Shown: piece by piece, positions 286 to 25,479 of the stretch
Numbering within the stretch: the first letter of the stretch is position 1
Layout of the letters: each line of letters opens with the position of its first letter
Assembly (NCBI RefSeq): GCF_000385565.1
Contig: NC_021169.1
Location: 1,222,571-1,286,570, forward strand
Direction: 5' to 3'
DNA from: Archaeoglobus sulfaticallidus PM70-1
GTDB taxonomy: Archaea > Halobacteriota > Archaeoglobi > Archaeoglobales > Archaeoglobaceae
DNA length: 64,000 nucleotides
Notes under the pieces: generated by a model
What the model was told of the DNA's origin: nothing
Databases searched by the model: none
The model's input: only the letters and a program-made list of their open reading frames with translations
Made by a program: the position numbers and the translations under genes

Positions 286-1025
286 AAATAGCTGATGAGG
301 TTGCAGAAGCCTTCAGAAAGGCACTGCTAAGCTGGGGTGAAAGAAATATTGTAAACTATCCGTGGAGAAAAAATAGAACACCATATCGTGTCTTGCTTGC
401 CGAAATTCTCCTTCACCGAACTCGCGCAGAACAGGTAATTCCGCTTTATAACAATTTGGTCGCTTTATGTCCTGATGCATTCTCTCTTGCAGCAATAGAC
501 AGAGGAGAACTTCACAGAATGTTAAAGTCTGCAGGATTGAGATGGAGAATAGATTTAATGCACGAAATGGCCAAAACGATTGTTGAAAGATATAATGGAG
601 AAATACCTGAGAAAAGAGAGGAACTGATGAAGCTTCCAGGAGTGAGTGAATACATTGCATCTGCTGTGAGGTGCTTTGCTTACGGTTATCCGGAGCCCCT
701 CTTAGATACCAACACGGTTAGAATTGCCGGACGAGTGTTTGACATCGAGGTAAAAGACTCATCTAGAAGAAGCAAAAAAATGAGAGAGTTTATGAGAAAT
801 CTGCTGGATACGGAGAGACCGGATGTATTCAACTATGCCATGATTGACTTTGGAAAAAAGGTTTGCAAAAAGAGAAATCCGGAATGTTTTGCATGTCCAC
901 TGTGGATGTGCAGTTACAGAATAAGAATTATTAATGATTTTTACAAAAAAGAAGGTGTGTTTTATGAGGGAGGTTTTGATAGAGGAGCTGATCAAAGAAA
1001 TTCTGGGGCCCAGAAATGGGCCTGA
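282..1025 (+). CDS. Thymine-DNA-glycosylase-like HhH-GPD protein (Mig.Mth type)
   Basis: 247 aa from the ATG at 282, which overlaps the methyltransferase stop. It has a helix-hairpin-helix (LPGVSEYIASAV, residues 119-129), a GPD Asp in LDTNTVRIAGR (Asp142), and a C-terminal iron-sulfur Cys set (Cys195, 202, 205, 210). The position that is Lys in endonuclease III is Tyr124; Mig.MthI, which removes T from G-T mismatches, also has Tyr there. Proposed role (inference): repair of G-T mismatches left by deamination of 5-methylcytosine made by the coupled methyltransferase. The last 20 codons overlap drmA in another frame. A MutY-type adenine glycosylase is the alternative, but the MutY C-terminal domain is absent. 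Confidence 0.82.
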   Translation: MKIADEVAEAFRKALLSWGERNIVNYPWRKNRTPYRVLLAEILLHRTRAEQVIPLYNNLVALCPDAFSLAAIDRGELHRMLKSAGLRWRIDLMHEMAKTIVERYNGEIPEKREELMKLPGVSEYIASAVRCFAYGYPEPLLDTNTVRIAGRVFDIEVKDSSRRSKKMREFMRNLLDTERPDVFNYAMIDFGKKVCKKRNPECFACPLWMCSYRIRIINDFYKKEGVFYEGGFDRGADQRNSGAQKWA

Positions 1026-4000
1026 AGAAGAGATGCACTGGAACCCATACAAAGAATACTTAACTGGCGTGATAGAACCTGTGAGATGTAAGAAAAAAAA
1101 GGTTCCAGATCCGGATTCCGAAGATATAACACTTTATGGAGAAAATTTTGTTTCTGAAGATGATGTCGGAGAAGAAGTGGCTCCTGTGATTGCACCAACC
1201 GAACTTGATCCCAAAACAAAACCGAAATCATTCGGGATATCTTTTTTGATTCGTGGAAGTAAGCCTGAACTCAGTATCTGTGTGACATGGGGCAGATATA
1301 AAAAAATCCAGCGTGAGGATAGAATTACTTGGAAAAGATTTCCGTACAAAGTGATTGTCAGTTTTCGTCTTGAAAGAGATTTTATGAGTTTTCCAATCTA
1401 CCAAGGAGAAGACGGCAAGATACTCCTTTACGTTCGGAGAGTGCCTCTGGATTATGATCATCAAAACGTGGTGATCACCCTCGTAAACGATCTGGAGCCT
1501 GAAAACTGCTTCGAGGAAAGAATCACGGAAGCGTGTATTTTCCAGCCTTCGATCAGAGTCAAACTTCTCGGTGATGCCAGACTTGCCCAACCCGAGATTG
1601 GGGATGACTTGATGCTTTTCCTTTACAGAAATCGGCCTGTACTTGCACGCGGTTACATGTGTTCGGCAATATGGAAGGATGTCGACTATCAGGAGTATTT
1701 CGAAAAAAAAGTGCTGTGGCCGGATGGAGTTTATTTTGAAGACTGTGCCGAATTCTTTGATTGTGATGTGAGGAGTGACTTTGTACCCCTTTACCCCAGC
1801 TCAGCCCCCAATTTTGAGTGGGACGAGGAGATGAGGAGAGAGTTCGGTGACCCTCCAGAGCTTTTTGCATACAGGTTATCGGAGATGTGGGATGAAGATG
1901 AGATCGAGAGATTTCTGGGTCCAGTTGTTGATGCTTACCGTAGATGGATCCAAAAAAATGAGAGCAGAATCAGTTCTGAACCTCTTCCGGAAAATCTTAA
2001 ACAGCTGGGTTTCCAGTTGATAGAAAATCAGAAAGAGCTGCTGAGACGAATAAAAAATGGAATTGAATTGCTTAAAAGCGATGAAGAAGCAAGATTTGCC
2101 TTCTGCTTTGCTAACAGAGTGATATGGATTCAGCACAAGTGGAAAGGGCGTGGAGAATTCAGATGGTGGCCTTTTCAGCTTGCATTCATACTGATGGTTC
2201 TTGAATCACTTGCAAATCCAGCATCAAGAGACAGAGAAAAAACCGATCTTCTGTGGATAGCCACAGGTGGTGGAAAAACAGAGGCCTATCTCGCCCTCAT
2301 GGCATTTATAATGGCTCTCAGAAGAGTGAGAGCCAGAAGGGGAAAGGCCTCAGAGAGTACAGGTGGAGGAACGGCCGTCATAACAAGATACACCCTTCGC
2401 CTGCTGACAATTCAGCAGTTCAGAAGAATACTCCGGATGGTTACAGCGGCAGAATTTTTAAGGGTGATGAGAACAGAAAAAGGTCGTGGCTGGAGGCCTG
2501 AAAAGTGTGAAATGAGTGAGGACTTTATTCTGGGCTCCACAAGGTTTTCCGCCGGTCTTTGGGTGGGCGGCGCAGTGACTCCAAACCATTTACGGAAAAA
2601 AGGGTACGCTATAGATGCGCTTATGGGGAAAGACGCGGAAGGTGAGCCTGCACAGGTCATTCGCTGTCCTGTTTGCGGTACATATCTTTCGGTTCCCAGC
2701 AGTGGGTTGCCAGAAGGAGAGAAACTCTATCTCCTTATCAGATCCGGCAAAACAGAGGAAGAAATCAAGTCTTCAATTTTATCCTTCATCGAAACCTCTG
2801 GACTTATCAGGAATTTCAGGATTTTTCATCATGGTGGAGAGTTTTTTACACTGGAAATAGAACTTGATAAAAAAATGACAGAAAATGAGGTGGATAACTT
2901 ATGGCAAGATTTGAAGGGACAAATAGCAGCAGAACTTCTCTCTTTCAGAGCCTCAAGGCCAGGATATTTTGGATGCAGGAGTGAAGTAGGCAGGAAATCA
3001 AATATTCCGAGAGATTTCGAGATCTACTGTCCAAATCCACACTGCACACTCAACACCGAAGTTGAGTACGTGGAGGGGGTACCTCTCAATCCGGATGGAA
3101 ATGGCGAGATACTTCCTGACGGGCTTGTAACAAAAGAGCATGAACATCCGTTTTCCGGCTCCAGAATGCCCATTCCAGCTCTTACAGTTGATGAGCAGAT
3201 ATATTACAGATGTCCAACCATAATTGTCTCCACCGCCGATAAAATTGCACGTATGGCTTTTGAACCACGAGCCGCATCCATATATGGTAATGTTGAAAAA
3301 TACAATGCTTACTATGGATACTACCGTAAAAACCTTCTGCCTGAAACAACTACCAAAAGTGCCGCAGATGAATCCAATTCAATTGATGTGTCTCCATTTT
3401 CACCACCTGAACTTATCGTTCAGGATGAGCTTCACCTGATAGAGGGGCCGCTGGGTAGCATGTTTGGCCTATACGAGACTGTGGTTGAAGGTCTTCAGAA
3501 TATTTCAGGAGTTAAACCAAAATACATAGCATCCACAGCAACCATAAAAGACGCGGAACTGCAGGTCAGACAGCTGTTTGCAAGGAACCTTTTCCAGTTT
3601 CCGGCATACGGCATCGATATTGAAGACAGCTTTTTTGTAAGATATCCTAGCTGGGATGCAGGATGGGACGAGAACAGACCAGGAAGGGTTTACATGGGTG
3701 TTTACTGCCCTGGCATGGGTCCACTTACTCCCCAGATAAGAATATGGGCCAGACTTCTGAAAACATGTTATGATCACAGAGACGACCCAGCGATTAAGTA
3801 CTTCTGGACCATAGTGGGGTATTTCAATGCCATCAGAGAACTTGGAGGAGGAAGAGCTCTTTACAGAGAAGACACAGTTGAAAGACTGAAGCAGATCTCA
3901 CTGGATCGCATGCGACCGGTTGATCCCGAGAACGTAGTCGAACTCTCAAGCAGAATAAGCTCAACCGAAATTCCCGTTATACTTGATGAGCTTGAGGAGG

Positions 4001-4710
4001 GAGAGAGGAGAGATCCTTCAGAAAATCCTGATGCAATTTTCACAACATCGATGTTCGGCACAGGAGTTGATGTTCCTCACCTGTCACTAATGATCGTAAA
4101 TGGGCAGCCGAAAACGACTTCTCAGTACGTTCAGGCTACTGGAAGGGTTGGAAGAGCTCATGGAGCTCTGGTTATCACATTTCTGAGAGCCGGAAGACCC
4201 AGAGATCTCAGCCATTATGAAATGTTCACTGGTTACCATCACAGGATTCATCTGGAAGTTGAACCATCTTCAGTTTCACCCTTTTCAAAAGGGTGTCTTG
4301 CCAGAGCCTCAGGGCCCGTTCTTGTATCCTTTCTCCGAAATCTTCCCAATCCCAAAGTGGTTTGGTTTGACGAATATGGCGGGAAGGAAATTCTCAATCC
4401 TGTTGCTGAAGACGACATCAAAAAATTTACTGACATCACACTCAGCAGAATCTCAAGAATAATAACGGATAACGGTACGATTAATGAACTTATAAATTAT
4501 TTCCGATCTCAGGTGGATAGATGGAAATACGTGGCTGCAAAAATAAGGGATGTGCTCAAGTTTATGGAATATTGTCTATACAGATTGCCAGAGTTCAGTG
4601 TGGTGCTGGGAGACCCTCTCCACGAAAAATCACCTTCAGTAGAGGTTGTTTACAGAAACGCTCCCCAGTCTCTCAGAGAGATTGAGGAAACAACAGGCTT
4701 TGAGGTGTGA
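964..4710 (+). CDS. drmA: DISARM helicase-domain protein DrmA
   Basis: 1248 aa. The start at 964 is chosen because a GAAGGTG ribosome site precedes it; an upstream start at 934 would deepen the overlap with the glycosylase gene. Superfamily 2 helicase signatures are present: Walker A IATGGGKTEAYLAL (GGGKT near 435-439), a DELH box in VQDELHLIEGP (821-824), and motif VI QATGRVGRAHG (about 1057-1067). The size and the neighbour drmB (DUF1998) match DrmA. It probably acts as an ATP-driven motor on invading DNA, in complex with DrmB. It lies in one operon with drmMII, the glycosylase, drmB, drmC and the drmE-like gene, with overlaps or gaps of a few bases. Confidence 0.9.
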   Translation: MREVLIEELIKEILGPRNGPEEEMHWNPYKEYLTGVIEPVRCKKKKVPDPDSEDITLYGENFVSEDDVGEEVAPVIAPTELDPKTKPKSFGISFLIRGSKPELSICVTWGRYKKIQREDRITWKRFPYKVIVSFRLERDFMSFPIYQGEDGKILLYVRRVPLDYDHQNVVITLVNDLEPENCFEERITEACIFQPSIRVKLLGDARLAQPEIGDDLMLFLYRNRPVLARGYMCSAIWKDVDYQEYFEKKVLWPDGVYFEDCAEFFDCDVRSDFVPLYPSSAPNFEWDEEMRREFGDPPELFAYRLSEMWDEDEIERFLGPVVDAYRRWIQKNESRISSEPLPENLKQLGFQLIENQKELLRRIKNGIELLKSDEEARFAFCFANRVIWIQHKWKGRGEFRWWPFQLAFILMVLESLANPASRDREKTDLLWIATGGGKTEAYLALMAFIMALRRVRARRGKASESTGGGTAVITRYTLRLLTIQQFRRILRMVTAAEFLRVMRTEKGRGWRPEKCEMSEDFILGSTRFSAGLWVGGAVTPNHLRKKGYAIDALMGKDAEGEPAQVIRCPVCGTYLSVPSSGLPEGEKLYLLIRSGKTEEEIKSSILSFIETSGLIRNFRIFHHGGEFFTLEIELDKKMTENEVDNLWQDLKGQIAAELLSFRASRPGYFGCRSEVGRKSNIPRDFEIYCPNPHCTLNTEVEYVEGVPLNPDGNGEILPDGLVTKEHEHPFSGSRMPIPALTVDEQIYYRCPTIIVSTADKIARMAFEPRAASIYGNVEKYNAYYGYYRKNLLPETTTKSAADESNSIDVSPFSPPELIVQDELHLIEGPLGSMFGLYETVVEGLQNISGVKPKYIASTATIKDAELQVRQLFARNLFQFPAYGIDIEDSFFVRYPSWDAGWDENRPGRVYMGVYCPGMGPLTPQIRIWARLLKTCYDHRDDPAIKYFWTIVGYFNAIRELGGGRALYREDTVERLKQISLDRMRPVDPENVVELSSRISSTEIPVILDELEEGERRDPSENPDAIFTTSMFGTGVDVPHLSLMIVNGQPKTTSQYVQATGRVGRAHGALVITFLRAGRPRDLSHYEMFTGYHHRIHLEVEPSSVSPFSKGCLARASGPVLVSFLRNLPNPKVVWFDEYGGKEILNPVAEDDIKKFTDITLSRISRIITDNGTINELINYFRSQVDRWKYVAAKIRDVLKFMEYCLYRLPEFSVVLGDPLHEKSPSVEVVYRNAPQSLREIEETTGFEV

Positions 4711-4714
4711 GAAT

Positions 4715-6523
4715 ATGGCGAGAGAGATCCAGCACATCAGAAGATCGCAGTTTGTTCTTACTTATGGACCTGGAGCACTAATCGAAAGTAAAAATGGACC
4801 AAGAATGATACCCTCGATAGAACACGGGCTTGGAAGTCGTTTTAAACTGCAAACTTTCGAAAGATATGAAATAACCGACAGCAGGCTTAGAATAGTCATA
4901 AAAAACCTTACGGGAAAGAATGCCAGAGTATTTTCCCTCCCAACAAACGCCGGTGAAGGAAGGCCAAACACAGAAGGAATATATCACACCTATGTGTTTC
5001 CAACTTGGAAGATATGTTACGGAAGAGAGGGAGGACATCCCAATGACACACCGGTCCTTCATAACAGTGAAAGATGTCCGGTATGCGGACGGAAAGACGA
5101 TTCTTCCGCAGTAAGGTTTGTCGCGGCCTGCATTAATGGTCATTTGGACGAGGTCGACTGGGACTACGCCGTTCATCGAGGCAGGACGTGCAAACCCCGG
5201 TACTATCTGTGGAGAGCCGAAGGAAGCTCTCTTTCAGATCTTGTTGTGGAGTGTCATGATTGTGGAAAAAAAACAACCATGAAAGAAATCTATAACATAA
5301 AGTTTAGATGCTCCGGGAGGCGCCCCGAAACGGAACATCCAAGACATTCATCCTCCGGACCATCAGTAACCGAACCGAAAAGACCCTTTGACTGCGAACG
5401 TCCAATGAGAGTCCTTCAGAGACAGTCAACGTCTCTGCGTCTTCCAGTGACGGTAACACTTCTTACAATTCCCGAGTATGACGGTACTCTACCAAACATT
5501 CTCCAGAAAACTTCCGTAGCGGCATCAATAAGGGCAATCCTGAATTCTCCTTGGAGACCCTGTGAAGGTGGTGTTGAAAAGGAAAAAATCGTTCAGTGGA
5601 TTCGTGATGCCCTTGTTTCAAATGGTATCCCTGAGGAATCGATCAGTGAAATTGAAAAATATGTTGAAACAAACGGAATATCAAAATTCTGCGAACTCTT
5701 CGAACAGCTTCACAGTGAGGACAGGAGCTTTCTTGACTTCATGTATGAAGAGCTGGAATCACTTTTGTCCGGACCCAGAACCACACAAAATTTCAGCATG
5801 GGGCCACCCGAAGAAATAAGGTCCGATCAGGCAGAAATTATCCCGGATATGAAGGTTTATCCTGTTGATATTCTCAGAACAGTTACAGCTCAAACTGGCT
5901 TTTACAGAGTGCCATATCTACCTGAAAATGGGGAAACAGCTCCTGCTCAGGTTTCCTCAGGTGTGTACCTTGATGGGGCTTTATGGTACCCTGGCTTTGA
6001 GGGGCAGGGAGAAGGAGTTTTTATAACCTTTGCGGGAGATCCGCCCGATCTATCCACTTGCACGGCCTTTGATGAATGGAAAAACTCCAGAACGGAAACA
6101 GACTTTGTGCAGACGATGTGGGGCGATGCTGTTCACGAACCTCTTTTTGTCTGGTTGCACACCCTTTCACATGCGCTGATTCTTACGTTGTCCCTGCATG
6201 CCGGGTATTCATCAGCATCCTTGAGGGAGAGGGTTTACATCAACCGGGATGCCACCAGCGGAGGAATTCTCATTTACACCACATCTCCAGGAGAGGATGG
6301 AAGCATGGGTGGTTTGACAGGCTCTCTGAAGGTGTTTCGGGAAATTTTAAGAAAATCATCTGAGAGACTGAAACTCTGTTCCAATGATCCTCTCTGTCTT
6401 GAGGTGAGAAAAACTCCTGAAAGAGTGAACGGATCTGCCTGTCACAGCTGTTTACTGATTTCTGAGACATCCTGTGAACACAGAAACATGTGGCTGGACA
6501 GACATATAATTCTTGGTGATTGA
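4715..6523 (+). CDS. drmB: DISARM DUF1998 protein DrmB
   Basis: 602 aa from the ATG at 4715, 4 bases after the drmA stop and preceded by GAGGTG. The N-terminus RRSQFVLTYGPGALIE and the C-terminus, with HTLSHALI, a TSGGILIYTTSPGEDG stretch and NGSACHSCLLISETSCE, are characteristic of DUF1998 proteins of the DrmB type. Cys pairs (CPVCG, CHDCG) in the first third suggest zinc binding. In DISARM, DrmA and DrmB form the core complex. The gene looks intact and its length is in the family range. Confidence 0.9.
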   Translation: MAREIQHIRRSQFVLTYGPGALIESKNGPRMIPSIEHGLGSRFKLQTFERYEITDSRLRIVIKNLTGKNARVFSLPTNAGEGRPNTEGIYHTYVFPTWKICYGREGGHPNDTPVLHNSERCPVCGRKDDSSAVRFVAACINGHLDEVDWDYAVHRGRTCKPRYYLWRAEGSSLSDLVVECHDCGKKTTMKEIYNIKFRCSGRRPETEHPRHSSSGPSVTEPKRPFDCERPMRVLQRQSTSLRLPVTVTLLTIPEYDGTLPNILQKTSVAASIRAILNSPWRPCEGGVEKEKIVQWIRDALVSNGIPEESISEIEKYVETNGISKFCELFEQLHSEDRSFLDFMYEELESLLSGPRTTQNFSMGPPEEIRSDQAEIIPDMKVYPVDILRTVTAQTGFYRVPYLPENGETAPAQVSSGVYLDGALWYPGFEGQGEGVFITFAGDPPDLSTCTAFDEWKNSRTETDFVQTMWGDAVHEPLFVWLHTLSHALILTLSLHAGYSSASLRERVYINRDATSGGILIYTTSPGEDGSMGGLTGSLKVFREILRKSSERLKLCSNDPLCLEVRKTPERVNGSACHSCLLISETSCEHRNMWLDRHIILGD

Positions 6524-6527
6524 TAAA

Positions 6528-6989
6528 ATGAGTGAATTTTTTATAATTACAACGGGCGAAAAATGGGTTGGATACGGATTCAGGTCGTTTCATTCAGTTG
6601 TAAATGAGATGATCAGATCTGCTGAAAGAGAAGTCGTTATGACCGTTTATGTGATGTCTGACGTGTCAGTGACAAACAGCCTGAAGAAAGCCATTGAAAG
6701 AGGCGTTTCCGTTGAGATTTTTGTATATTCTCCCCAAATTGCAATCAAACCAGAAGCTCTTCAAGAGCTTCTTAAAATGAAAAAGGAGTTCAGAAATCTC
6801 GTAATTCACAATATTGAGGATAAAATTTTGCATGCCAAGGTTCTTGTTGTGGACGGTCGAAAAGTACTGGTCGGATCGGCCAATCCAACCATGGGTGGGA
6901 TGCTGAAAAACTATGAACTTGGATTGCTTGTGGACAATGGAAAAATAGCACAAAACATTCTGATACTTCTGAGAAGGTTGTTAAAATGA
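6528..6989 (+). CDS. drmC: Phospholipase-D-like protein DrmC
   Basis: 153 aa from the ATG at 6528, 4 bases after drmB. It has a single HKD motif, HAKVLVVDGRKVLVGSANP, the signature of PLD-superfamily nucleases. One motif means an active site would need a dimer. Its place after drmA-drmB fits DrmC, the PLD component of DISARM. It is shorter than many DrmC proteins. The stop overlaps the next start (ATGA). Confidence 0.85.
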   Translation: MSEFFIITTGEKWVGYGFRSFHSVVNEMIRSAEREVVMTVYVMSDVSVTNSLKKAIERGVSVEIFVYSPQIAIKPEALQELLKMKKEFRNLVIHNIEDKILHAKVLVVDGRKVLVGSANPTMGGMLKNYELGLLVDNGKIAQNILILLRRLLK

Positions 6990-9964
6990 GGGTGTATTAT
7001 CATACCTATCCAACATGTCCCCAGTGTCATGAACCACATGCTGGTGGTTCACCTCTTGAGGAATGGGAAGACTGCATCCACTGTCCTTCCTGTGGCGCTC
7101 ATTTTTACAGATCTGTGGATCTGGTGTCGTCAGGTAGATTCCCTAGGACAATCGAAATACTGAGCAATGCTGAAGGGTGCGAGGTTCTTAATCATCTGAA
7201 AAACATGCCTCTTGTATGGAGGATCAATCCCAATCCGGTTGAAAGGGAGTATGTGTCTTGGGTAACCCAAGCTGAAAAAGGTGTTTATCTCATAACTTGG
7301 CCATGGAAAGACGTCAGATTTGTTCCGGTCCTCGTATCTGAGTTTTTAATCAGCAGACCAAAAAGTAAGGCTGTTGTTATTGGTGAGGTGTCAAAAGAAG
7401 AGAGTGGTGGGCTGATAGAATTCCCAGCTGTAGATGACGTTTTCAGAAATCTCGTGTTCATCGACTCACCGAAAACAGATTTTGAGGATCTGAAAACAGA
7501 AATCAACAGATTTAACAGAAAAATGGTCTTCAAGAAGGTTAAGGTTGTTAACTGCGTTATCAAAGAGACGAAAGGAAAAAATCAGAGGGAATTTATTTGC
7601 ACAGAAACGATCAGGAAATGTAAAAACAGCATCATAAAAGAGCTGGAAGAGACATTTGGCAAAGATGCTGTAAGGATTGTGAAATGGAAAAAACTGGATG
7701 CTCAAAAGTGGAGAGAGGACGCTCTGAATGAGGACGGATTTGTTGATATTGTGCTTGAAGAAAGACAGCAGTATTCAGCAAAAAATCTCAGATACAGGAG
7801 TCAGTGGCTCTGGGAAGTTTTATTAAATTCTCGAAAAATAAAAAGGCCCTCCAGAATTATCAAATACACAACTGTCAGGGGTAAAGATGACCTGAAAAAC
7901 TCAGCTTCCGCAAGACTTTTTTTCATATCTGCGGAAATCGATCCCGGAGATATTTTCAGAATGGTCAGTTCAATCAACCCGGATCTGGTTGTGATACAGA
8001 ATGTGGATGATTTCATAAAAGATATGGTTCTAAATGGTTCGAAAAGCATGAAATTTATCAATTTCCTGAATGAACCGCCAGAATCGGTCGTTCTTATGTT
8101 TTCGACAAATCAGGAAGCGCGGTACCTTTATGGCATTAATTACCCGAGTGAATTCAGCATTTTTGATCTGGGTGTAATACCCCACACATGGGACTGCGCA
8201 CCGGTAGTTGAAAGGGTGAAAGCACTTGGTAGTGGAGACAGTACTTATCCCTCGCCCGTTTCTTCAAACATACAGGATCTTCCTGACCAAAGAGGTATTC
8301 CAGAAGTTGAATTTATTGAATCAGAAAGCATCAGCAGTTTGGAGGAGGCTGTTAAAGAGGTAGAAAATATCTTTCAGGGAGATATGGGCAGAGACATGAT
8401 TAAATTTTTGCGTGACATGTTAAAATCACCAGTCCATCCTGCAAATCTAAGAAGGAAGGGTAAGCTCACAGGACATATTCTAACGTTCGATTACATTATG
8501 ACTCAGATATACAATATACATGGCGAAGAAAAAGCGAATGAGATTAATTCCATCGTCAAGTCAGTTTACGGAAGTGAGCCAGAAATAGGTAGCCCGATAA
8601 TGGAAAAGATATTGGAAAAAGCAAATGAATTACTTAAAAAGGAGGACTGCACAATTGGAGTGGTTGTTCACAGCCATGACGTTCGTGCCACTCGAAAAAT
8701 TCTCAAAACTCTGATCACTGGAAGCTGTGACAGACTTGTAGTATGTTCTTGGATTGATCTTCCAGAAATACTCAGGAGCAAAAGCAGTGGTGATGTTTGT
8801 TTAATAAGCACAGTCACACCACCATATTTATTTACTCTAAGTGCACCAAGAATCCAGAAAATCGCATTTATAGGTGGAAAAAAGTTCATTGAAACGGTTA
8901 CCAAGCTTGTAAAGAACAGACTTGACGAGAACCTAAGAAAGCCTCTTTACATCCTGTCAAAGGATGAATCGGCACCACCCTTGCTTAAAAAGATACAGAA
9001 AGAACTTGATCTCAGTTCCAATCAGGAAATCTTGGATTTAGCTGAAGAATTCATGTTTGAACTGGATAGCGGTATCCAAGTATCGACCCCTCAGTATGGT
9101 TACCCCTCATACCCATTAACACTTGAACCCGGCGAGAAAGCTCTGCTCGTTGTTGATTTCGATGGAAGAGGCGCATTTATTCCGCCAAACTCATCATTAC
9201 TGGTTGTTTCAGAGAACGAACTTGCTGAGATCAACACAAGTGAAATCATGGAAAAGAGCAGGAGCTCCACTCTGATTGGCAAGGAACTCATGCTTGACAG
9301 ACAGGGCCTTTATTTCTCTTTCAGATCAGATTTTATCCGGCTCATGATGGAGCACGGAGAGAGGGCGGTATTCAGGAGGGGGCCATACATCTGGAATGGT
9401 TTTGATGAACTTTTGAAAGATGCGCTCCAGTGGATTCTTCTGCTCCAGATGGCAGTTGAAAATTACTCGGAACAAATGAAAATACCGCATGAAGATACAG
9501 AGAGAAAAATTTCAGAATATCTTGCTTCTCTCGACCTTACGGCAAAAAATCCGGAGTACATCAAAAAATGGTGGAATGACTTTGAGATTGTTTTTACCAG
9601 AAAAGGGCCTGTTCCGGTATTCAGAATTGAGCACCCCCGAAGTCTGAAAGATCTGGAGAAAATCTACGCTGGACTGAGCGAACTCATACCTGATCTTGAA
9701 ATAGATCTGGAAGATGCAAGGAGATGTTATGCCGCCTCCATAATGATTCAGAGTTTCAGAAGATTGCTTGTGAAAGGTAAAATAAAAGATGTGTCTCCAA
9801 CTCTCAGAATCCTGTACAGAAAAATTGAAAGAGAGATAAAAAAGATACTGGAGAATTCAGAAAAATTCAGGGTGAGTCTGGTTTACACCGTAGAAATTTT
9901 AAGAGAAGTGCATCCTTTCAGAGTTATGGAAAACTTCAAGGATTACTGCCGGTTTATGGACTGA
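6986..9964 (+). CDS. DrmE-like large DISARM-associated protein
   Basis: 992 aa, translationally coupled to drmC. The N-terminus carries likely zinc ligands (TCPQCH at 10-15, CIHCPSCG at 30-37). I see no clear Walker A motif. The middle has an alternating strand-helix pattern typical of a P-loop fold (VVIQNVDDF, VVLMFSTNQ, RLVVCSWIDLPE), so it may be a degenerate helicase-like fold. Class 2 DISARM loci carry a large uncharacterised protein, DrmE, and the position fits. The assignment rests mainly on context; the protein could also be a different DISARM accessory. Confidence 0.6.
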   Translation: MRVYYHTYPTCPQCHEPHAGGSPLEEWEDCIHCPSCGAHFYRSVDLVSSGRFPRTIEILSNAEGCEVLNHLKNMPLVWRINPNPVEREYVSWVTQAEKGVYLITWPWKDVRFVPVLVSEFLISRPKSKAVVIGEVSKEESGGLIEFPAVDDVFRNLVFIDSPKTDFEDLKTEINRFNRKMVFKKVKVVNCVIKETKGKNQREFICTETIRKCKNSIIKELEETFGKDAVRIVKWKKLDAQKWREDALNEDGFVDIVLEERQQYSAKNLRYRSQWLWEVLLNSRKIKRPSRIIKYTTVRGKDDLKNSASARLFFISAEIDPGDIFRMVSSINPDLVVIQNVDDFIKDMVLNGSKSMKFINFLNEPPESVVLMFSTNQEARYLYGINYPSEFSIFDLGVIPHTWDCAPVVERVKALGSGDSTYPSPVSSNIQDLPDQRGIPEVEFIESESISSLEEAVKEVENIFQGDMGRDMIKFLRDMLKSPVHPANLRRKGKLTGHILTFDYIMTQIYNIHGEEKANEINSIVKSVYGSEPEIGSPIMEKILEKANELLKKEDCTIGVVVHSHDVRATRKILKTLITGSCDRLVVCSWIDLPEILRSKSSGDVCLISTVTPPYLFTLSAPRIQKIAFIGGKKFIETVTKLVKNRLDENLRKPLYILSKDESAPPLLKKIQKELDLSSNQEILDLAEEFMFELDSGIQVSTPQYGYPSYPLTLEPGEKALLVVDFDGRGAFIPPNSSLLVVSENELAEINTSEIMEKSRSSTLIGKELMLDRQGLYFSFRSDFIRLMMEHGERAVFRRGPYIWNGFDELLKDALQWILLLQMAVENYSEQMKIPHEDTERKISEYLASLDLTAKNPEYIKKWWNDFEIVFTRKGPVPVFRIEHPRSLKDLEKIYAGLSELIPDLEIDLEDARRCYAASIMIQSFRRLLVKGKIKDVSPTLRILYRKIEREIKKILENSEKFRVSLVYTVEILREVHPFRVMENFKDYCRFMD

Positions 9965-10116: not shown

Positions 10117-10419
10117 TCAAAAGAAAAAAGTCAGATAAACTAGTTCCAACTCGATCCTCACCCAGCCCCATTCATACACCTCGACAAACACCTTCTCCCT
10201 TGCATTATCCTCGCTGTAATCAACCTCATACGGCTCGTAAACCTCCCTGAGTTCTTGGAAGCAGAAAAAGTCGTACATCGCCCTTTCTTCGGCAGTCATA
10301 AGGTCGCAGTTCTCGATGCAGGGCAATTGCATCTCCAACTTTCTAGAATCAAGAGTAAATTTTGCTTTTGCAACCATTTGCATGGGTTTTCCACGAAATG
10401 GGAAGAAAACATCCTTCAC
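10117..10419 (-). CDS. Small hypothetical acidic protein
   Basis: 100 aa, transcribed toward the DISARM operon and divergently from the helicase fusion. The composition looks like a real soluble protein: many Glu, regular hydrophobic spacing and a CDLMTAEERAMYDFF stretch. I recognise no family. A possible TATA element (TTATAT near 10418) lies in the short gap to the divergent gene. It could be a small regulator or an antitoxin-like factor, but nothing in the sequence proves a role. Confidence 0.5.
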   Translation of the reverse strand: MKDVFFPFRGKPMQMVAKAKFTLDSRKLEMQLPCIENCDLMTAEERAMYDFFCFQELREVYEPYEVDYSEDNAREKVFVEVYEWGWVRIELELVYLTFFF

Positions 10420-10455
10420 AATCCTTATATCATGCAGGTAAAATTAGTATAACAG

Positions 10456-13400
10456 ATGAAAATATCCCTGTACAAACCTCTATCAAAGTTCCCGTTTAAT
10501 TTCTCAATCTTTAAAACGGCTAAGTCTATTTGCAAGTATTTAGACGGTAAAATAACTTGCAACGAACTTTTAAGCATCTGTAAAACTGACGATGTTAAGG
10601 CTTTAGTAGACTACCTAATTGAACGAAGAGATAGTAGATTTAAAGAGATCTTAGCAAGTAAACCCGAATTACTTCGCTTGTCCGAATACACCAGATTCTG
10701 GAAAGACGTGATAGTAAATTACCCAGAGAAGGCCTTTGAAGTCCTTGAAAAGCTCGATTTTATCGAAGATGCAAAAGTTATCGCGAAATCGCTCGACGGC
10801 GGCGTAGTAGCGCTGGATGTGGAGATCAGTTTGGATAGTCGAACCATTGAAGCTGGTGGCATAGTTTTTTGTGACAACGAGCGATTCGTGACCTTTTACT
10901 TTAGTAGAAGCGACACTGACAAATTTTTAAAGCTTCTCGTAGAAGTAGTATCCAAATCAAGCGCTATTCTGGTCGGACACGGCATTTTAAAGCACGACTT
11001 GAAATTTTTGAGTGAGGTTTGTGGTATCGATTTAAAAAACAAAGTAGTAGACACGCTTTACCTTCACTGCTTAGTTGAACCCGGATCGAAACCAAGATCT
11101 CTCTCAATGTTAGTACCTCACAACGAACACGACCCTGTAGAAGACGCTAAGGCGAGTTTGACCTTACTCAAGCATTTGGTTGAAAAGCTCAGACAATACG
11201 AACTCGAAAAAGAGGCGAAAGAGCTGTTAGAAGATAACCCGTACCTATCCGGCTTGCCTCACGTCATAGATAAAAGTGAGTGTGCTCACAGCTCGGATTT
11301 CGTATCGGAGAACTGCGAACAAAGTGTTCAGGGCGGTGAAGACAGAAGAGAGTTGCTCGTTGTGGCAGATTGGAGAGGTTTGTCAAATCCGTGGTCACCG
11401 TACATCGTTGACCCGGCGTCGCACTCTCCCAGAGATGTTTGGGAGAGTGCTGCAGTGTTTTCCGCTATGTGCGCTATTCGTGACCCCAAGTGCGGGAACG
11501 GCGATCCAAATACGTTCAGGAAGACATGGGTCAACGACGAAAATACGCGAAAAGCAATTTTAGAGGTTTCAAAGGTTGTTAAAAAGAGAGAAGTACCTAA
11601 AATGTCGATCGAAACGCTATCAGAATACGTTCCATTTCTAACAGGTAAATTCGACAGAGTGGTGCTTTACGATGGTGAACTGGTACTGTCAACAGCTTTC
11701 AATCTGAAAGATTTCTTTAGATTATCCGACACCGTCTTGGCATACGTCTCGCTGGCGAAAGCATTTTCAGAGATATCTGAAACTATTCAGCTCGACCCCA
11801 TTACGTTCGTGGATTCGGGATTTAAACCTGCATTACTACTTCCTGAATCATCGTCGCTAGACCCACTGAACATCGCGTCGAATGTTGCAGGCCTGATGGA
11901 CGTTATTGAGTTGCCTGCAGTCGTTTTGGTCAGTAACGACTACGAGAAAAGTCTCGCAATAAGAGCCTTTAGCGATTTCTGTCCAACTTATGTGGACGAC
12001 AAAAATTACGGTTCGTCGGCCTTTAGGTTGGCTATAGAGAACGAAGGAGTGGCAATTACGAGCTTGTTCGAAAGAATACCCTCAGGATTCAAGTCATTAG
12101 TCGTGTTCTCGGACAAAAGTATAGTAAAGGGTGTCAAAGGGCGTACTTGGGCCGAAAAGTTGGCCTACGGTTTTATGAAGGTGTACGGCATCGCCAGAAA
12201 GATCGAAGCTAATAAGATAGCCTACTTATCTTTTTCTTCCGGAGTGTTTTCGGACTTCTTGCGCATACCGGAGTTCGGAAAAATGCTTGCTGCTGCGGAT
12301 AAAATGACGTATAGGAGGAAGAGGCCACGTGGTAATGTTTTTGTCCGAGTGTGGAACTCCGTCGAAGAGGCCGTCGAGTATGCTGAAAATATCACGGAAG
12401 AAGTGTGGGGCTTTCGCTACAGGCCATATCAGAGAAAAGCTGTAGCGCTCCTTCTATCGGCGTATTCGCTAAACAGATCGACATCTCCTTTCGGGGTGGT
12501 CGTTTTACCCACCGGTTCTGGAAAAAGTGTAATTTTCCAGTCCGCAGCCATCGCTTTGCATAAACTAACTGGCACTGTAACGATAGTGGTCTCACCTCTT
12601 CAGGCCCTAATCCACGATCACGTGGAGGGGCTGAGGAGGAAAGGGGTTAGAGTGGCGAAAATAGACAGCAATACAAGTTCAGAGGAGAGATTTAACGCGA
12701 TCCTAGATGCTATCTCCGGAGACATCGTGCTGCTGTACGTTACTCCAGAAAGGTTCGAGAGAGACGAATTGCGGGTAATTCTTGGCTGTGGAAATGTTGG
12801 TTTCGTGATACTTGACGAAATTCACTGCCTGAGTACATGGGGTAGCACGTTTAGGCCCAGCTATAAGTACATGGCGAGAATGATAGCTTCGGAAAGTGAG
12901 AATAGATTTTTGCCCATATACGGCTTCTCGGCAACCTTGCCGAAGGACGTTCTCAGTGATGTGCTCGCAGAGTTAGGCATTGGCGTTTCAAAAGTTCGAG
13001 AGATCGAAATAGACTTCGATTCTGACTTTACTCCAGACGACGTCCAGATTTTCTCTGGTAATCTGGTTCTGCGAGGTCCTGCGACGAGGCCAGAAATAAA
13101 AATAGGTGTTATACAGGCCAAAAATGACGAAGATAAGCTTAGGAAGGTTGTTAACGTAATTAAACAGTTGAGAGACACTTTAGACGAAAGAGGAGAGCCT
13201 TGGATTGGACTGGTCTTTGCATCCTTCGTGAGATCCCCCATCATTCACGAGAATGTAGACTACATTGCAAGGTCGATAGAGGAGGGTATAGGGGAGGAGG
13301 TCTTGTACTTCCACGGGCAAATGGATCTGGATGAAAAAGTGGAAGTTATCAGTAAGCTTGAGAGGGCCGTAAAATCGCCAAGCAAGCCGAGGATAGTTGT

Positions 13401-15036
13401 CGCCACAAAAGCCTTTGGCATGGGTGTGGATCTGCCAAACGTAAGGTTCGTTGTACACGCCCACGTTTCACAGTCTCTGGAGGAGTACTATCAAGAAATA
13501 GGACGAGCAGGGAGAGATCGAAAAGACAGTTACGCTGTAACAGTTTTCTCTCCAGACGATTTTGACGAGAAAAGGCAGTTAATAAGGCACATAACTTACG
13601 ACCAGGTTAACAAGTTGGTTAAGATAATTGGCAACTTTCGAGCGTCGAACGAGAGAGACGAAATCGCCATTCCTCTAAACCCATTTTACAGCCGCTTCGG
13701 ATACTCGGACGGTAAGGCTACCCTGAAAAACGCACTAAAAATTCTGGCTGAGAACGAAGTTATCGACTACGAGATCACCAATGGGTTCGTCGTGGCGTAT
13801 AAAGTTCGAGATGTAATTGACTTGAAGAGTATAGATGATGCTCTGGTATTTTTTGATGAGGAAAGCGACGTAATTCTGTTGGATACCAACAGCCCAAAGA
13901 TGTTCAAAGCCGCCCTCATGGAGAGGTTGCGGAAGTGGGAAAATGAGGGTAAGTTAACCAGAACAAGATATGCTTGGAGAATTGGAGACAAAACGATAGA
14001 TGTGGCTAAGAACGGTATCTGGTTCGAGATGGGATACATCACCTTGAAGAAGGATCCGAGTCTGGAGAACGTGAGTATTTCCAAAGAGTTTGAATACTAC
14101 CAGCTTCAGATTCGCAAACTTTCACAGTTGGAGAGATTTCTAAAGGAAATTTCGTCCTTACCACTAAAGGAGCAGAACAAGAAGGCCCACGAGACTCTAG
14201 GGAGGTATCTGGAGGAGGGCATCGCGAACGAGTTTGAAAAAATCCTCCTTGATAGGATCGGTAGTATAGAAGAGGATGTAGTCGACCGTTTGGGGGATAA
14301 GGCCGTAATCTTTGGGTTAACGGGTAGCGGTAAGACTGAAAAACTGGCAGAATTGGCAGCATACTACGTATACAAGTATTCCGACAGAGCAGTAGTGATA
14401 GTGTTGCCGGATCGGAGAAGCTCTGATATTGTTTCGAGAATTAGGGATTATCTGGGTTACGACGTAGATATAAACATTAAGCAAGCGAGGAATGTTGTCG
14501 AGAACCTCGACGAATTGCTTAGATATGAGGTTATAATCCTCGACGATGCCGACACTGCTCTTGCCAAGACGCCTATTGATGTTAGTACTCTGGAAAGAAT
14601 AGCCAAATTCAATCGAAAAGTCTATTTCGCATTTGACCCCATGATACTTGCGGCATTTGGCAACCTAAGGCAGGTTTTAGAGAACTTCGAGGAGTGTAAT
14701 GTCGCAGTCTTGAGGTCTGTGGAGTTGCCAGTCAAGGTTAAAGCAGATGGATTAGACGTAAGAGTCGTTCAGAAGGAAGATCGGGAACCTAGTAGGAGTG
14801 GTGTTCCAACTCAGATCGTTAAATACTTGCCTAGCAAGTTTGACGGAGCACTTCTACCAGCAATCTCTCCCAACAAGAACATGAGAGATTACTATACGCT
14901 TCTGTATCTTTGCTTAAAGGCGTCTAAATATCGTCCAGCTAATTTGAAATTTAGGGAGAAAGATTTCGGAGCTGTTCTGACCGAGTGGATTGAGGAACTA
15001 AACAATCTTGGAAAGAAGAGGATAGATCTCAAGTGA
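10456..15036 (+). CDS. DnaQ-like exonuclease - RecQ-like helicase - P-loop fusion protein
   Basis: 1526 aa. Residues about 110-260 look like a DEDDh 3'-5' exonuclease: VVALDVEIS carries the D-x-E pair, ILVGHGILKHDLKFL the second Asp region, and HDPVEDAKASL the final H-D. Residues about 650-1090 form a RecQ-type helicase with LPTGSGKSVIF (Walker A, 686-691), DEIHC (787-791) and YYQEIGRAGRDRK (motif VI, near 1012-1024). A second P-loop, GLTGSGKTEK (1289-1296), with a matching VIILDDADTAL, opens a C-terminal ATPase domain. Exonuclease plus RecQ recalls Werner helicase, but the extra P-loop domain is unusual. No RecQ zinc Cys cluster is visible. Its codon use differs from the DISARM genes (more CGA, TCG, TTA), suggesting a separate origin. 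A defence role is inferred from location. Confidence 0.75.
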   Translation: MKISLYKPLSKFPFNFSIFKTAKSICKYLDGKITCNELLSICKTDDVKALVDYLIERRDSRFKEILASKPELLRLSEYTRFWKDVIVNYPEKAFEVLEKLDFIEDAKVIAKSLDGGVVALDVEISLDSRTIEAGGIVFCDNERFVTFYFSRSDTDKFLKLLVEVVSKSSAILVGHGILKHDLKFLSEVCGIDLKNKVVDTLYLHCLVEPGSKPRSLSMLVPHNEHDPVEDAKASLTLLKHLVEKLRQYELEKEAKELLEDNPYLSGLPHVIDKSECAHSSDFVSENCEQSVQGGEDRRELLVVADWRGLSNPWSPYIVDPASHSPRDVWESAAVFSAMCAIRDPKCGNGDPNTFRKTWVNDENTRKAILEVSKVVKKREVPKMSIETLSEYVPFLTGKFDRVVLYDGELVLSTAFNLKDFFRLSDTVLAYVSLAKAFSEISETIQLDPITFVDSGFKPALLLPESSSLDPLNIASNVAGLMDVIELPAVVLVSNDYEKSLAIRAFSDFCPTYVDDKNYGSSAFRLAIENEGVAITSLFERIPSGFKSLVVFSDKSIVKGVKGRTWAEKLAYGFMKVYGIARKIEANKIAYLSFSSGVFSDFLRIPEFGKMLAAADKMTYRRKRPRGNVFVRVWNSVEEAVEYAENITEEVWGFRYRPYQRKAVALLLSAYSLNRSTSPFGVVVLPTGSGKSVIFQSAAIALHKLTGTVTIVVSPLQALIHDHVEGLRRKGVRVAKIDSNTSSEERFNAILDAISGDIVLLYVTPERFERDELRVILGCGNVGFVILDEIHCLSTWGSTFRPSYKYMARMIASESENRFLPIYGFSATLPKDVLSDVLAELGIGVSKVREIEIDFDSDFTPDDVQIFSGNLVLRGPATRPEIKIGVIQAKNDEDKLRKVVNVIKQLRDTLDERGEPWIGLVFASFVRSPIIHENVDYIARSIEEGIGEEVLYFHGQMDLDEKVEVISKLERAVKSPSKPRIVVATKAFGMGVDLPNVRFVVHAHVSQSLEEYYQEIGRAGRDRKDSYAVTVFSPDDFDEKRQLIRHITYDQVNKLVKIIGNFRASNERDEIAIPLNPFYSRFGYSDGKATLKNALKILAENEVIDYEITNGFVVAYKVRDVIDLKSIDDALVFFDEESDVILLDTNSPKMFKAALMERLRKWENEGKLTRTRYAWRIGDKTIDVAKNGIWFEMGYITLKKDPSLENVSISKEFEYYQLQIRKLSQLERFLKEISSLPLKEQNKKAHETLGRYLEEGIANEFEKILLDRIGSIEEDVVDRLGDKAVIFGLTGSGKTEKLAELAAYYVYKYSDRAVVIVLPDRRSSDIVSRIRDYLGYDVDINIKQARNVVENLDELLRYEVIILDDADTALAKTPIDVSTLERIAKFNRKVYFAFDPMILAAFGNLRQVLENFEECNVAVLRSVELPVKVKADGLDVRVVQKEDREPSRSGVPTQIVKYLPSKFDGALLPAISPNKNMRDYYTLLYLCLKASKYRPANLKFREKDFGAVLTEWIEELNNLGKKRIDLK

Positions 15037-17187: not shown

Positions 17188-18208
17188 TTAAGTGCATAAC
17201 ATCTTAAACTTATTACTCAAGAACTTCTCAATCCAGCCCTTCGCAAAAGATATTGACTCTGTTAACTTTTTGAAAGCTTTAACAATCGTTTCTTTAAGTT
17301 CTTCTATATTCAACGGAGATACTTCAGAAACAAACCTTTTAACACTCTTCCAAACGTTTTCAATTGGATTTAAGTCGGGAGAGTAAGGAGGGAGATAAAC
17401 CAATGCAATATTAAGCTTTTCAGCCTCCTCTCTTACTCTCTTTGCATGATGTGTCCTGAAATTATCGAGAATGATTACGATTCTTTTTTCAGGATTAACA
17501 TCTCTGATTTTCCTGAGAAAAGATATGAAGTCTTCTGACCTGTTTCTTTCTGAAAACTCTATTACACTCTCTCCGTTCAAGCTATAGAATCCTGAAACCT
17601 TAGCTTTAACGTACGTGGCAACCCTTTTAACCGGCTTTCCAAAGCTCCACAGCCTTGCAGTATTTGCATTTGCTTCAACGGCCATTTCATCAACGAATCC
17701 TATGACGTCATCGTTGATTTCAGCTTCATCCAGGTTTTTTTAAGGTGTCTTCAGCATTTTCGGGTTTCCTGTAATCTTTCTGGTAGGGTTTAGCGTACTT
17801 CATCCTAAAAGATCTGAGAATTCTTCTGACCTGCCATGAGGAATATTTCACCCCAAACTCTGCTTCAATGAGCTCCTGAACTTCTTTTGTTGTCCATTCT
17901 CTTTCCTTGAGCATTTCTCTGAGTTCTTCCTTTTGCTCTTCCGTAAGTTTGGAGGGTCTTCCTCCACCAAACTCCGGAATTAAGCCTTCGTAGCCGCTAG
18001 AATTCCATCTCTTAAGCCATGCATAGCCCGTAGCTTTAGTAACCCCAACCAAGTCGGCAGCTTCCTCAACACTCATTCCTTTGTGGAGATATCTTATGAA
18101 GTACAGTCTTTTAAGAACTCTTGTATCTTTTTCGAGCTTTTTGATCCTTTTATCGAGTTCTTCTGCCGGTAAATGCTTTACAACTTCGTAGATTCGCTTT
18201 CTGCCCAT
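17188..18208 (-). CDS. IS630-family transposase in two frames
   Basis: The 5' frame (18208 down to 17726) encodes helix-turn-helix domains (GMSVEEAADLVGVTKATGYAW). The 3' frame, entered near 17740, encodes the DDE domain: GFVDEMAVEANA, then IVIILDNFRTHHAKR and LPPYSPDLNPIENVWK. The two frames join by a -1 shift at a run of seven A, giving TLKK-NLDEAEINDD. No frame needs any other correction, so the element may still be mobile. Confidence 0.88.
17735..17741 (-). promoter_or_regulatory. A7 slippery site for -1 frameshift in the transposase gene
   Basis: Read on the minus strand this is TTA AAA AAA CCT. A -1 slip gives AAA AAC CTG GAT, which fuses the two transposase frames in register with the conserved protein. 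Homopolymer slippage is a known way for IS630 elements to make their transposase. Confidence 0.65.
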
Positions 18209-22772: not shown

Positions 22773-22985
22773 ATGGGTGGAAGATACAAACGAGTACAAG
22801 TGATGCTATCGAATGAGCAATACAATTTGATAAAACTAATAAGAAAAAAATTAGGTTTAAGTAGTGATTCAGAGACAGTTAAAGTCATTGTTTTCTCTTG
22901 GCTTGCTGAAAAATCTATTATCTCGGCATTTATTAAGGACGAAATATTATTAGGTGATGAAAATGAAAAACAACAAAGAGATTAA
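22773..22985 (+). CDS. Ribbon-helix-helix protein, possible controller of the R-M system
   Basis: 70 aa from the ATG at 22773, preceded by AGGTGA. The sequence RYKRVQVMLSNEQYNLIKLI followed by a helix pair (SDSETVKVIVFSWLAEKS) fits a CopG-type DNA-binding dimer. It overlaps the methyltransferase gene by 23 bases, so the two are translated together. It may repress or time expression of the restriction system (inference). Confidence 0.65.
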   Translation: MGGRYKRVQVMLSNEQYNLIKLIRKKLGLSSDSETVKVIVFSWLAEKSIISAFIKDEILLGDENEKQQRD

Positions 22986-24570
22986 AAAAAGATATGGACA
23001 ATATTTCACTCCATCTTATGTTGCCGATTTTATGGTATCGCTTATATCTAAACCAAAAAATACACTAATTTTAGATCCTTGTGCTGGCACAGGAATATTT
23101 CCTATCTCATTACGCAAAGCAGGTTTTAAAAATATAGTAGCATACGAAATAGATGAAACTCTTCCAAACCATTCTGAAATCGAAATACTTCGAAGAGATT
23201 TCCTTAAGCTAAAACCCAATGAACAGTTCGATGTTATTATAGGAAATCCACCCTATGTTCGATGGAGGAACATACCCACTGAATGGAAAGAGTTGTTTAA
23301 AAAATCAAAATATTGGTCTGCTATAATGAACGGATTATCTGACCTTACATATGCCTTTATATATCACAGTATTAACATGCTAAAAGAGAATGGCGAACTT
23401 ATTTTTATTACACCAGTATTTTGGACTCAGACTGTCCATGGAGCTAGATTGAGGGACTATCTCACCAAATATGGTCATGTTGAAGTCCTTATAAATCTTA
23501 ATGAGATGAAAATATTCAAAGAAGTATCTTCAACCATTATTATATTCAAATACATAAAAAAGAAAGTTGAAAAACCTATAAAAATTATAAATCTCCACAC
23601 AAAAGATAAACTTACAGTAAATCATCTGAAAAAGGTCAAACTACTCATCGAAACACTTAAAGGTGAAGAAAGTTACATCCAAGAAGGAGTATACAAAGCA
23701 TTTGTTCATGAACAGTTTAGAGATGGCGACCCTTGGAAACCGGTGCCTAAGATACAGATAAATCCATTATTTAGCTTTGAGTATTCTCCTATCCTACACT
23801 TTAGAAGGATTTCATTATTAGGATCTCTGGCAGACATAGGCAATGGCATGGTTAGTGGTCTCGATAAGGCATTTTCATTAGAAAATATAGACATTAAAAA
23901 ACTAACGCCAGAAGAAAGAGAAAAAATAATATATGTTTATAAAGCTCGTAACTTAGATAGATTAATACCAAAAACAGATCCAGTACCTTATTTATTTGTC
24001 AATGATATAAATGATGAAGAAATTTTTAAAGAACTTTATCCTAATTTTTACAATAAATTAATAAGCTTTAAAGAAAAACTACTTAAAAGATATAATTACG
24101 GTATTGAGATTCCTTGGTGGCATTGGGTATTCTTGAGAAATAAACATTTACTTGAAAAATACAATGAGAAAATCTTTGTACCAAGCAAAGAGAGATATGA
24201 CTCTAAAGGGTATTTCCGCTTCGCGTACGTGGAGGGACCATATTATGCAACACAGGATGTTACAACAATCTGCATTAAAAATACTGTGAGAGAAGGAATA
24301 AAATATATACTGGCTCTTCTAAACTCAGAACCTTATCAAGAATATATATTATATAAAGGCTTTTCTCGTGGAGGGGTTTTTGACTTCTCAGAAAGACCTC
24401 TTGCGGATATACCAATAGTGAGGATAGACTGGAACAACTCAAAAGAAGTAAAACTTTATAATGATATCGTGGCCATTGTCGATACCATAATTATGAATAA
24501 AAGTTATAATAGATATATAGATGAACTTAATCAGCTAGTTGATAAATTATTACAGATAACACTAAATTAA
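22963..24570 (+). CDS. N6-adenine DNA methyltransferase of a HincII-like system
   Basis: 535 aa. The start at 22963 is spaced 4-5 bases from AGGTGAT; in-frame starts at 22954 (GTG) and 22957 (ATG) are possible. The motifs are GQYFTP (motif X), DPCAGTGIF (motif I) and NPPYV (motif IV), so it is a gamma-type N6-adenine methyltransferase. The C-terminal half (about 300-535) is the target-recognition part (RGGVFDFSERPLADIPI). The convergent neighbour is a HincII-like endonuclease, so the likely target is GTYRAC or a relative (inference). AT content is higher than in surrounding genes, suggesting recent transfer. Confidence 0.88.
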   Translation: MKNNKEIKKRYGQYFTPSYVADFMVSLISKPKNTLILDPCAGTGIFPISLRKAGFKNIVAYEIDETLPNHSEIEILRRDFLKLKPNEQFDVIIGNPPYVRWRNIPTEWKELFKKSKYWSAIMNGLSDLTYAFIYHSINMLKENGELIFITPVFWTQTVHGARLRDYLTKYGHVEVLINLNEMKIFKEVSSTIIIFKYIKKKVEKPIKIINLHTKDKLTVNHLKKVKLLIETLKGEESYIQEGVYKAFVHEQFRDGDPWKPVPKIQINPLFSFEYSPILHFRRISLLGSLADIGNGMVSGLDKAFSLENIDIKKLTPEEREKIIYVYKARNLDRLIPKTDPVPYLFVNDINDEEIFKELYPNFYNKLISFKEKLLKRYNYGIEIPWWHWVFLRNKHLLEKYNEKIFVPSKERYDSKGYFRFAYVEGPYYATQDVTTICIKNTVREGIKYILALLNSEPYQEYILYKGFSRGGVFDFSERPLADIPIVRIDWNNSKEVKLYNDIVAIVDTIIMNKSYNRYIDELNQLVDKLLQITLN

Positions 24571-24588
24571 AAATTTTTAAAATCAATA

Positions 24589-25470
24589 TCAAACCATATA
24601 ATCAAATAATGTTTTTTTATTTCTGTATTTTTTTATGAGGGTTCTTAGTGTGTTTAAAGTTTCTTCTATCGAGGCAGTCCTCCTATCAACAAACTCAACC
24701 CACCTCTTGTTAAATTCTTCAGCTAACGATTCGATGAATGTTAGTTTATCTTGACTCTCCAACTCAACCATATCTTTTACGTGCCATTGGATCTGAATGG
24801 CTGCATCAAAATTTATTGTTGGAATCTTTTTAACATCCAATCTGAAAAAATCTTTTATGTATATTTCTTCAATAGAAGCATAACCACTTGATTGACGGTA
24901 GTAAATACCAATGAACCAAAGATTAACTTTATCTATAATACTTGGTTTAGTCTCAAGTATGTCTTTCATATAATCTATTATCCTTTTTGCTGAAATTATA
25001 TTGGGGTCTCTACTTGGTCGATCTAAATTATGCGATTTTACATTTATCGCTACTATATCATTTATATTGTCTACCAAATCGTTACCATAGAACAAAATTA
25101 TGTCGGCTATACTCTGTTGATAAGCGGGTGGATCGTTCTGGTTAAGAGCATGCTGGTTAAAAGCATGATTTAACTGATTTCTGGAAATCATGTAGTTACT
25201 AGTCCCCCACCAAGTATCTCTTATAATCCTCTCAATTTGTGAATTGCTATGCCCTTTTTCTTTGAGTTCGCGAACCACTTCTAAAAGATATTCCTCTTGG
25301 AGAAACGTTTTAAAACCACACTCATTAAGCTTATTTTTAGTCCATTCCTCGAAGGGTAGACCACTAGCACTTCCACTAGCTCTTGACATTATAGCCACGT
25401 CATTTACCACTTGACCTTTCGCAGTGCTTAAGCAGGATTCTACCATTCTTCTAATTTCTAGTAAATTCAT
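24589..25470 (-). CDS. HincII-family type II restriction endonuclease
   Basis: 293 aa from the ATG at 25470 (AGGTG upstream). It shares with HincII the segment SGSASGLPFEEW, the PNIISAKRI run after the active site, and NFDAAIQIQWHVKDM near the end. The PD-(D/E)XK centre is IADIILF (Asp123) and VAINVKSHN (Asn143, Lys145); HincII has Asp at the position of Asn143, and the spacing is about 7 residues longer. It is convergent with its methyltransferase. AT-rich like its partner. Cleavage would produce blunt ends if HincII-like. Confidence 0.85.
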   Translation of the reverse strand: MNLLEIRRMVESCLSTAKGQVVNDVAIMSRASGSASGLPFEEWTKNKLNECGFKTFLQEEYLLEVVRELKEKGHSNSQIERIIRDTWWGTSNYMISRNQLNHAFNQHALNQNDPPAYQQSIADIILFYGNDLVDNINDIVAINVKSHNLDRPSRDPNIISAKRIIDYMKDILETKPSIIDKVNLWFIGIYYRQSSGYASIEEIYIKDFFRLDVKKIPTINFDAAIQIQWHVKDMVELESQDKLTFIESLAEEFNKRWVEFVDRRTASIEETLNTLRTLIKKYRNKKTLFDYMV

Positions 25471-25479
25471 GTCAAACAC

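Follow-up and report, generated by a model that had tools for sequence, protein, structure and literature searches.

An archaeal exonuclease–RecQ–P-loop fusion resembling plasmid-borne bacterial exonuclease–RecQ–UvrD proteins

RecQ helicases are superfamily 2 (SF2) motors with 3′–5′ polarity. A plasmid search retrieved large proteins of bacteria, given in their annotation as ‘RecQ family ATP-dependent DNA helicase’, in which a DEDD exonuclease, a RecQ helicase and a UvrD helicase are joined within 1500–1760 aa. The plasmids belong to Proteobacteria, Cyanobacteria, Bacteroidota, Campylobacterota and Deinococcota; examples of the proteins are WP_223295316.1 from Allochromatium, BAZ19242.1 from Scytonema and WP_022275194.1 from Bacteroides. 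In Pfam terms, these proteins run RecQ then UvrD, and their N-terminal exonucleases carry the motifs GHN..D, IDTL and NDPVxDA. A limited search of the open-licence literature found no paper describing this group, and RecQ is absent from the main text of a paper on the YprA-family helicases of DISARM-like systems (PMC12458937). The archaeal gene described here was originally predicted to fuse an exonuclease, a RecQ helicase and a second P-loop ATPase, with the extra ATPase having no precedent in the exonuclease–RecQ design. This last claim does not survive comparison with the bacterial plasmid proteins, which are of the same size and carry a UvrD helicase at their C-terminus. The archaeal gene is a divergent variant of this known type of fusion and has, in place of the bacterial SF1 helicase, a short P-loop domain that is RecA-like.

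The gene belongs to a hot-vent microbe, Archaeoglobus sulfaticallidus PM70-1, and we analyzed it within a stretch of 64,000 nt (the window, to which all coordinates refer unless a contig is named) of the complete, 2,076,931-bp genome (PMC3703591). It occupies 10456–15036 on the + strand as a single intact open frame of 1526 aa, in which three catalytic-looking domains lie in one chain, as had been predicted. From the N-terminus, we distinguish a helical region (aa 1–112, 10456–10791), a DEDDh 3′–5′ exonuclease domain (aa 113–260, 10792–11235), a region conserved in homologues but without a domain assignment (aa 261–640, 11236–12375), a RecQ-type SF2 helicase core (aa 641–1060, 12376–13635), a linker (aa 1061–1240, 13636–14175) and a C-terminal P-loop domain with a RecA-like fold (aa 1241–1526, 14176–15033), all on the + strand. 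A TATA-like CCTTATAT (10423–10430, + strand) ends 26 nt 5′ of the ATG and is a possible promoter of its own for a leaderless fusion gene, with the qualification that one-mismatch matches of this kind occur in the window at a frequency no better than chance.

Full-length or near full-length relatives among the 99 relatives searched were found in G023 (89% identity), G016 (62%) and G013 (fragmented and partly degenerate), placing the fusion in 4 of about 55 Archaeoglobaceae. A scan of ~85,000 species genomes, made with two short peptide patterns only, returned the same three relatives and no others, a profile search across 394 genomes from the phylum added none to these, and plasmid searches with the N-terminal 640 aa alone or the C-terminal 487 aa alone gave nothing meaningful. 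G023 represents another genus, and the 89% identity of its fusion exceeds the 68% seen for the core helicase Hef between the same two genomes; with this one gene as the yardstick, the excess points to lateral transfer of the fusion between Archaeoglobaceae. Measured against the G023 copy, all five segments of the fusion, including the P-loop part, are under purifying selection (dN/dS 0.09–0.20). Synonymous divergence from this copy (L032) is 0.42–0.50 across the exonuclease, the middle region and the RecQ core and 0.20–0.23 past residue 1060, and the drop suggests intragenic recombination. The G023 copy has a frameshift near aa 92–109 that splits its N-terminus, and the G013 copy lies in several pieces on two contigs (L036, L037) and has lost its Walker A motif; the gene may be decaying in these two genomes, or their draft assemblies may carry errors. 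In the G016 homologue (L033 8999–13759), a stretch resembling aa 38–120 is duplicated in tandem.

The predicted DEDDh exonuclease set is complete, with Asp-x-Glu at D121/E123, Asp at D181 and H-x4-D at H225/D230, and these five residues are conserved throughout the four-member family. The Pfam family DNA_pol_A_exo1 matches this domain at E = 0.001 with 19.3 bits, under its cut-off of 23.6. A profile built from 13 exonucleases of the bacterial fusions scored 52.6 bits against the window fusion (E = 3e-15 among 1608 ORFs) and 63.6 bits against the G016 copy, compared with 11 bits for an ordinary, unrelated 3′–5′ exonuclease in the same ORF set, and hhalign aligned the archaeal and bacterial fusion exonucleases with a probability of 98.2. 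Profile comparison thus shows the fusion exonuclease, which likewise stands before RecQ, to be akin in sequence to those of the bacterial exonuclease–RecQ–UvrD proteins. The region that follows (aa 261–640) has no Pfam or PDB match, and a search for its counterpart in the bacterial fusions found none. An AlphaFold model of aa 1–650 was of too low quality for interpretation, and no relation was detected between the 992-aa DISARM neighbour of the fusion and the protein's N-terminal part, this region included.

The prediction of a full RecQ helicase with a DEIHC box is confirmed for the core. Pfam assigns DEAD (E = 8e-28) and Helicase_C (E = 2e-19) to it, NCBIfam recQ domains match, and the best PDB matches are RecQ proteins (E = 1.7e-38). 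The core contains DEIHC at aa 787–791 (12814–12828, + strand), FRPSY at 799 and QEIGRAGRD at 1013, and has the DExH box, aromatic-rich loop and motif VI of a RecQ-type SF2 motor. The modules that follow the core in a full RecQ, an RQC zinc module and HRDC, are missing: neither gave a Pfam match at E<1, and the zinc-binding RQC module is absent from the linker because the whole protein contains no CxxC pair. In a RecQ-core tree, the placement of the long archaeal branch had 15% support with all rows and 89% in a reduced tree, neither value deciding whether it branches with the cores of the bacterial fusions. Among the matches from the first search, most of which were used in this tree only, the archaeal RecQ-like proteins G088, G082 and G089 were ruled out as relatives of the fusion, their RecQ cores being set in other architectures.

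An exonuclease that precedes RecQ is also the arrangement of the Werner syndrome protein (WRN), whose RecQ core also came up in the PDB search, and the fusion could on this basis be a chromosomal DNA-repair protein, the archaeal counterpart of the Werner helicase–exonuclease. WRN, however, continues from RecQ into RQC and HRDC, neither of which was found here, and the exonuclease groups with those of the bacterial exonuclease–RecQ–UvrD proteins. A gene that only 4 of about 55 Archaeoglobaceae possess and that was apparently transferred laterally is also not what a repair function of this kind would suggest; the distribution disfavours this reading, which we consider improbable.

Past the linker, the predicted P-loop and Asp-Asp strand both exist, although the P-loop is not at the predicted residues 1289–1296: the Walker A motif GLTGSGKT is at aa 1287–1294 (14314–14337, + strand), two residues away, and a Walker B-like DDAD at aa 1363–1366 (14542–14553, + strand) lies in the strand VIILDDAD. 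The Walker A pattern appears in only 1.8% of shuffles of the C-terminal P-loop region and is intact in three of the four family members, reading GLMGSGKT in G023 and G016 and, in degenerate form, GLMGSEKR in G013. With no CxxC and no RQC or HRDC match in the protein, the P-loop is not part of a normal RecQ C-terminal domain. An AlphaFold model of the C-terminal domain is RecA-like, with a mean pLDDT of only 60, and its best Foldseek match is the RecA1 domain of the DEAD-box protein Hera (E = 7e-5). Pfam SRP54 scored 24.9 bits in a match confined to the P-loop region, and we read this as generic P-loop similarity.

We also compared this domain with the UvrD helicase of the bacterial fusions. 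The idea of a shrunken UvrD domain 1A was suggested by visual comparison and by one BLAST match from a five-sequence set (E = 0.004), but found no confirmation in profile searches. Profiles of bacterial UvrD, of its domain 1A and of the linker gave no score above noise against the archaeal C-terminal part, hhalign against bacterial UvrD covered only 22 columns around Walker A (score 38 versus at most 21 for shuffled columns), and no homology between the linker at aa 1061–1240 and that of the bacterial fusions was detected. These comparisons detect no UvrD relationship in the archaeal C-terminal domain. The fusion might represent an undescribed single-gene archaeal defence family, in which the C-terminal P-loop would be a RecA-like switch unrelated to UvrD and the region between exonuclease and RecQ would be a new 380-aa domain that may recognise target DNA, a proposal that we regard as rather doubtful.

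Directly upstream of the fusion lie DrmA, DrmB, DrmC and the 992-aa ORF. The fusion starts 490 bp past the last of these DISARM-linked genes on the same strand, and a bacterial relative on a Scytonema plasmid likewise lies past a complete DISARM locus, so that the fusion could be an added component of the adjoining DISARM system. Codon use, which had been predicted to differ between the two, does so clearly (G = 168 on 41 df for the fusion against DISARM, versus 35–39 for DrmA and DrmB against the rest of DISARM), and an opposite-strand ORF of 100 aa, possibly a small gene, intervenes at 10117–10419 between the 992-aa gene and the fusion. A search for DrmA in the three fusion relatives found none, an empty result that is weak alone but with which the gene contexts agree, and five other archaeal genomes carry DrmB, DrmC and the 992-aa ORF, with DrmA where the contig reaches, in operons of the same make-up that lack the fusion. 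Because codon use differs, the relatives are without DrmA and the same operon occurs elsewhere without the fusion, we regard the fusion as independent of DISARM and not as a fixed partner of drmA, drmB and drmC, in keeping with the stand-alone gene of the original prediction. A role as a DISARM component is largely refuted, and we think it very improbable.

The archaeal DISARM operon (36–9964) itself encodes an HhH-GPD protein, DrmA, DrmB, DrmC and a conserved ~1000-aa protein without a family assignment (6986–9964), and it occurs in at least five other genomes (L112–L116), with HhH-GPD in three of them. Four of these five other loci have a C5-cytosine methylase gene, located before HhH-GPD/DrmA in three and after the ~1000-aa gene in L114; no methylase was found among the upstream ORFs tested for the window copy. 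On the Scytonema plasmid (L073 10806–31585), the exonuclease–RecQ–UvrD gene is the third gene past a complete DISARM locus, DrmD–DrmMI–DrmA–DrmB–DrmC; a HEC-05-like gene and then a pentapeptide gene lie in between, and all are on the same strand.

The window around the fusion is rich in defence genes, with DISARM, a restriction–modification pair (22954–25479) and an EVE-domain gene. The restriction–modification pair consists of convergent genes for an Eco57I-type methylase and a HincII-like restriction endonuclease, both with a low GC content (0.31–0.34). A McrBC-type gene pair (L038 12179–16023) lies about 4–8 kb upstream of the window start, and an IS630-type transposase at 17188–18208, in two ORFs, is likely broken. 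On the question whether homologues sit in defence islands, the copies in G023 and G016 have no recognised defence systems beside them in the stretches read: the G023 copy neighbours a MoxR-type AAA ATPase, a vWA protein and a transposase, and the G016 copy a ParA-type ATPase. Neither neighbourhood is clearly one of defence, so the contexts read do not establish a constant defence setting. Bacterial copies other than that of Scytonema lie near type I-D CRISPR, viperin, toxin–antitoxin or plasmid-replication genes, and such contexts are a weak pointer to defence, plasmids being rich in defence genes anyway.

The same surroundings bear on another possibility, namely that the fusion serves mobile elements (a plasmid or an integrated element) as an accessory helicase for repair or replication and aids their replication or recombination rather than defending the cell. 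The bacterial relatives are carried by plasmids, where one lies beside ParA/ParB and replication genes and another beside a replication initiator, the ParA-type ATPase and the transposase near the G016 and G023 copies would fit, and RecQ-type phage helicases exist. The window copy, however, sits in a chromosomal defence-gene cluster with no plasmid replication or mobilisation gene beside it, and scans of IMG/VR with the fusion protein and with a RecQ-free alignment found no relatives; an alignment of the exonucleases alone contained no motif sufficiently conserved to serve as a query. We consider a mobile-element helicase credible but unlikely.

We favour the view that the fusion is a stand-alone, laterally moving DNA-degrading helicase that most likely acts on foreign DNA, and we are about evenly divided on whether it is correct. 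Its mobility and the neighbourhood of the window copy lead us to propose defence against foreign DNA as the likeliest role. In the scheme that we infer, from the biochemical activities and polarity to the use of ATP by the C-terminal domain and a function in defence, the RecQ core would unwind duplex DNA, with 3′–5′ polarity by family knowledge, and the N-terminal DEDDh exonuclease would trim the 3′ strand that this exposes. The C-terminal RecA-like P-loop domain appears to occupy the place of the UvrD-type SF1 helicase in the bacterial proteins; as it has a single RecA fold with no recognisable second, it would probably bind ATP to gate or assist the machine and not act as a full second helicase. 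The gene would move among Archaeoglobaceae, with virus or plasmid DNA as its most likely target.

Compared with known systems, the RecQ-type defence helicases DpdF and PsyrT resemble the fusion in the RecQ-type core, which gives its best PADLOC scores, but their matches run through this core only; a full-length DpdF match was not obtained (145.5 bits versus a curated cut-off of 550), and no PADLOC family fits the whole protein. WRN shares the 3′–5′ exonuclease followed by a RecQ core, whereas the archaeal fusion is without the RQC zinc module and HRDC, has an extra C-terminal P-loop, differs in its closest exonuclease and is patchily distributed. The bacterial fusions resemble it in domain order, with exonuclease, then RecQ, then P-loop within a single chain of about 1500–1760 aa, in a closely matching exonuclease profile and in being accessory, often on mobile DNA and mostly stand-alone. 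The archaeal form differs from them in its extra N-terminal helical region, in the 380-aa unassigned region ahead of RecQ, in its third exonuclease motif, which has His where the bacterial proteins mostly have Asn, and in its short RecA-like domain as opposed to a full UvrD helicase. RecQ here is part of a mobile three-domain machine present in few genomes of its archaeal family, and the comparison highlights a bacterial exonuclease–RecQ–UvrD group that databases file simply as RecQ. If these proteins do defend against foreign DNA, a helicase and an exonuclease in one chain would be a simple and testable design.
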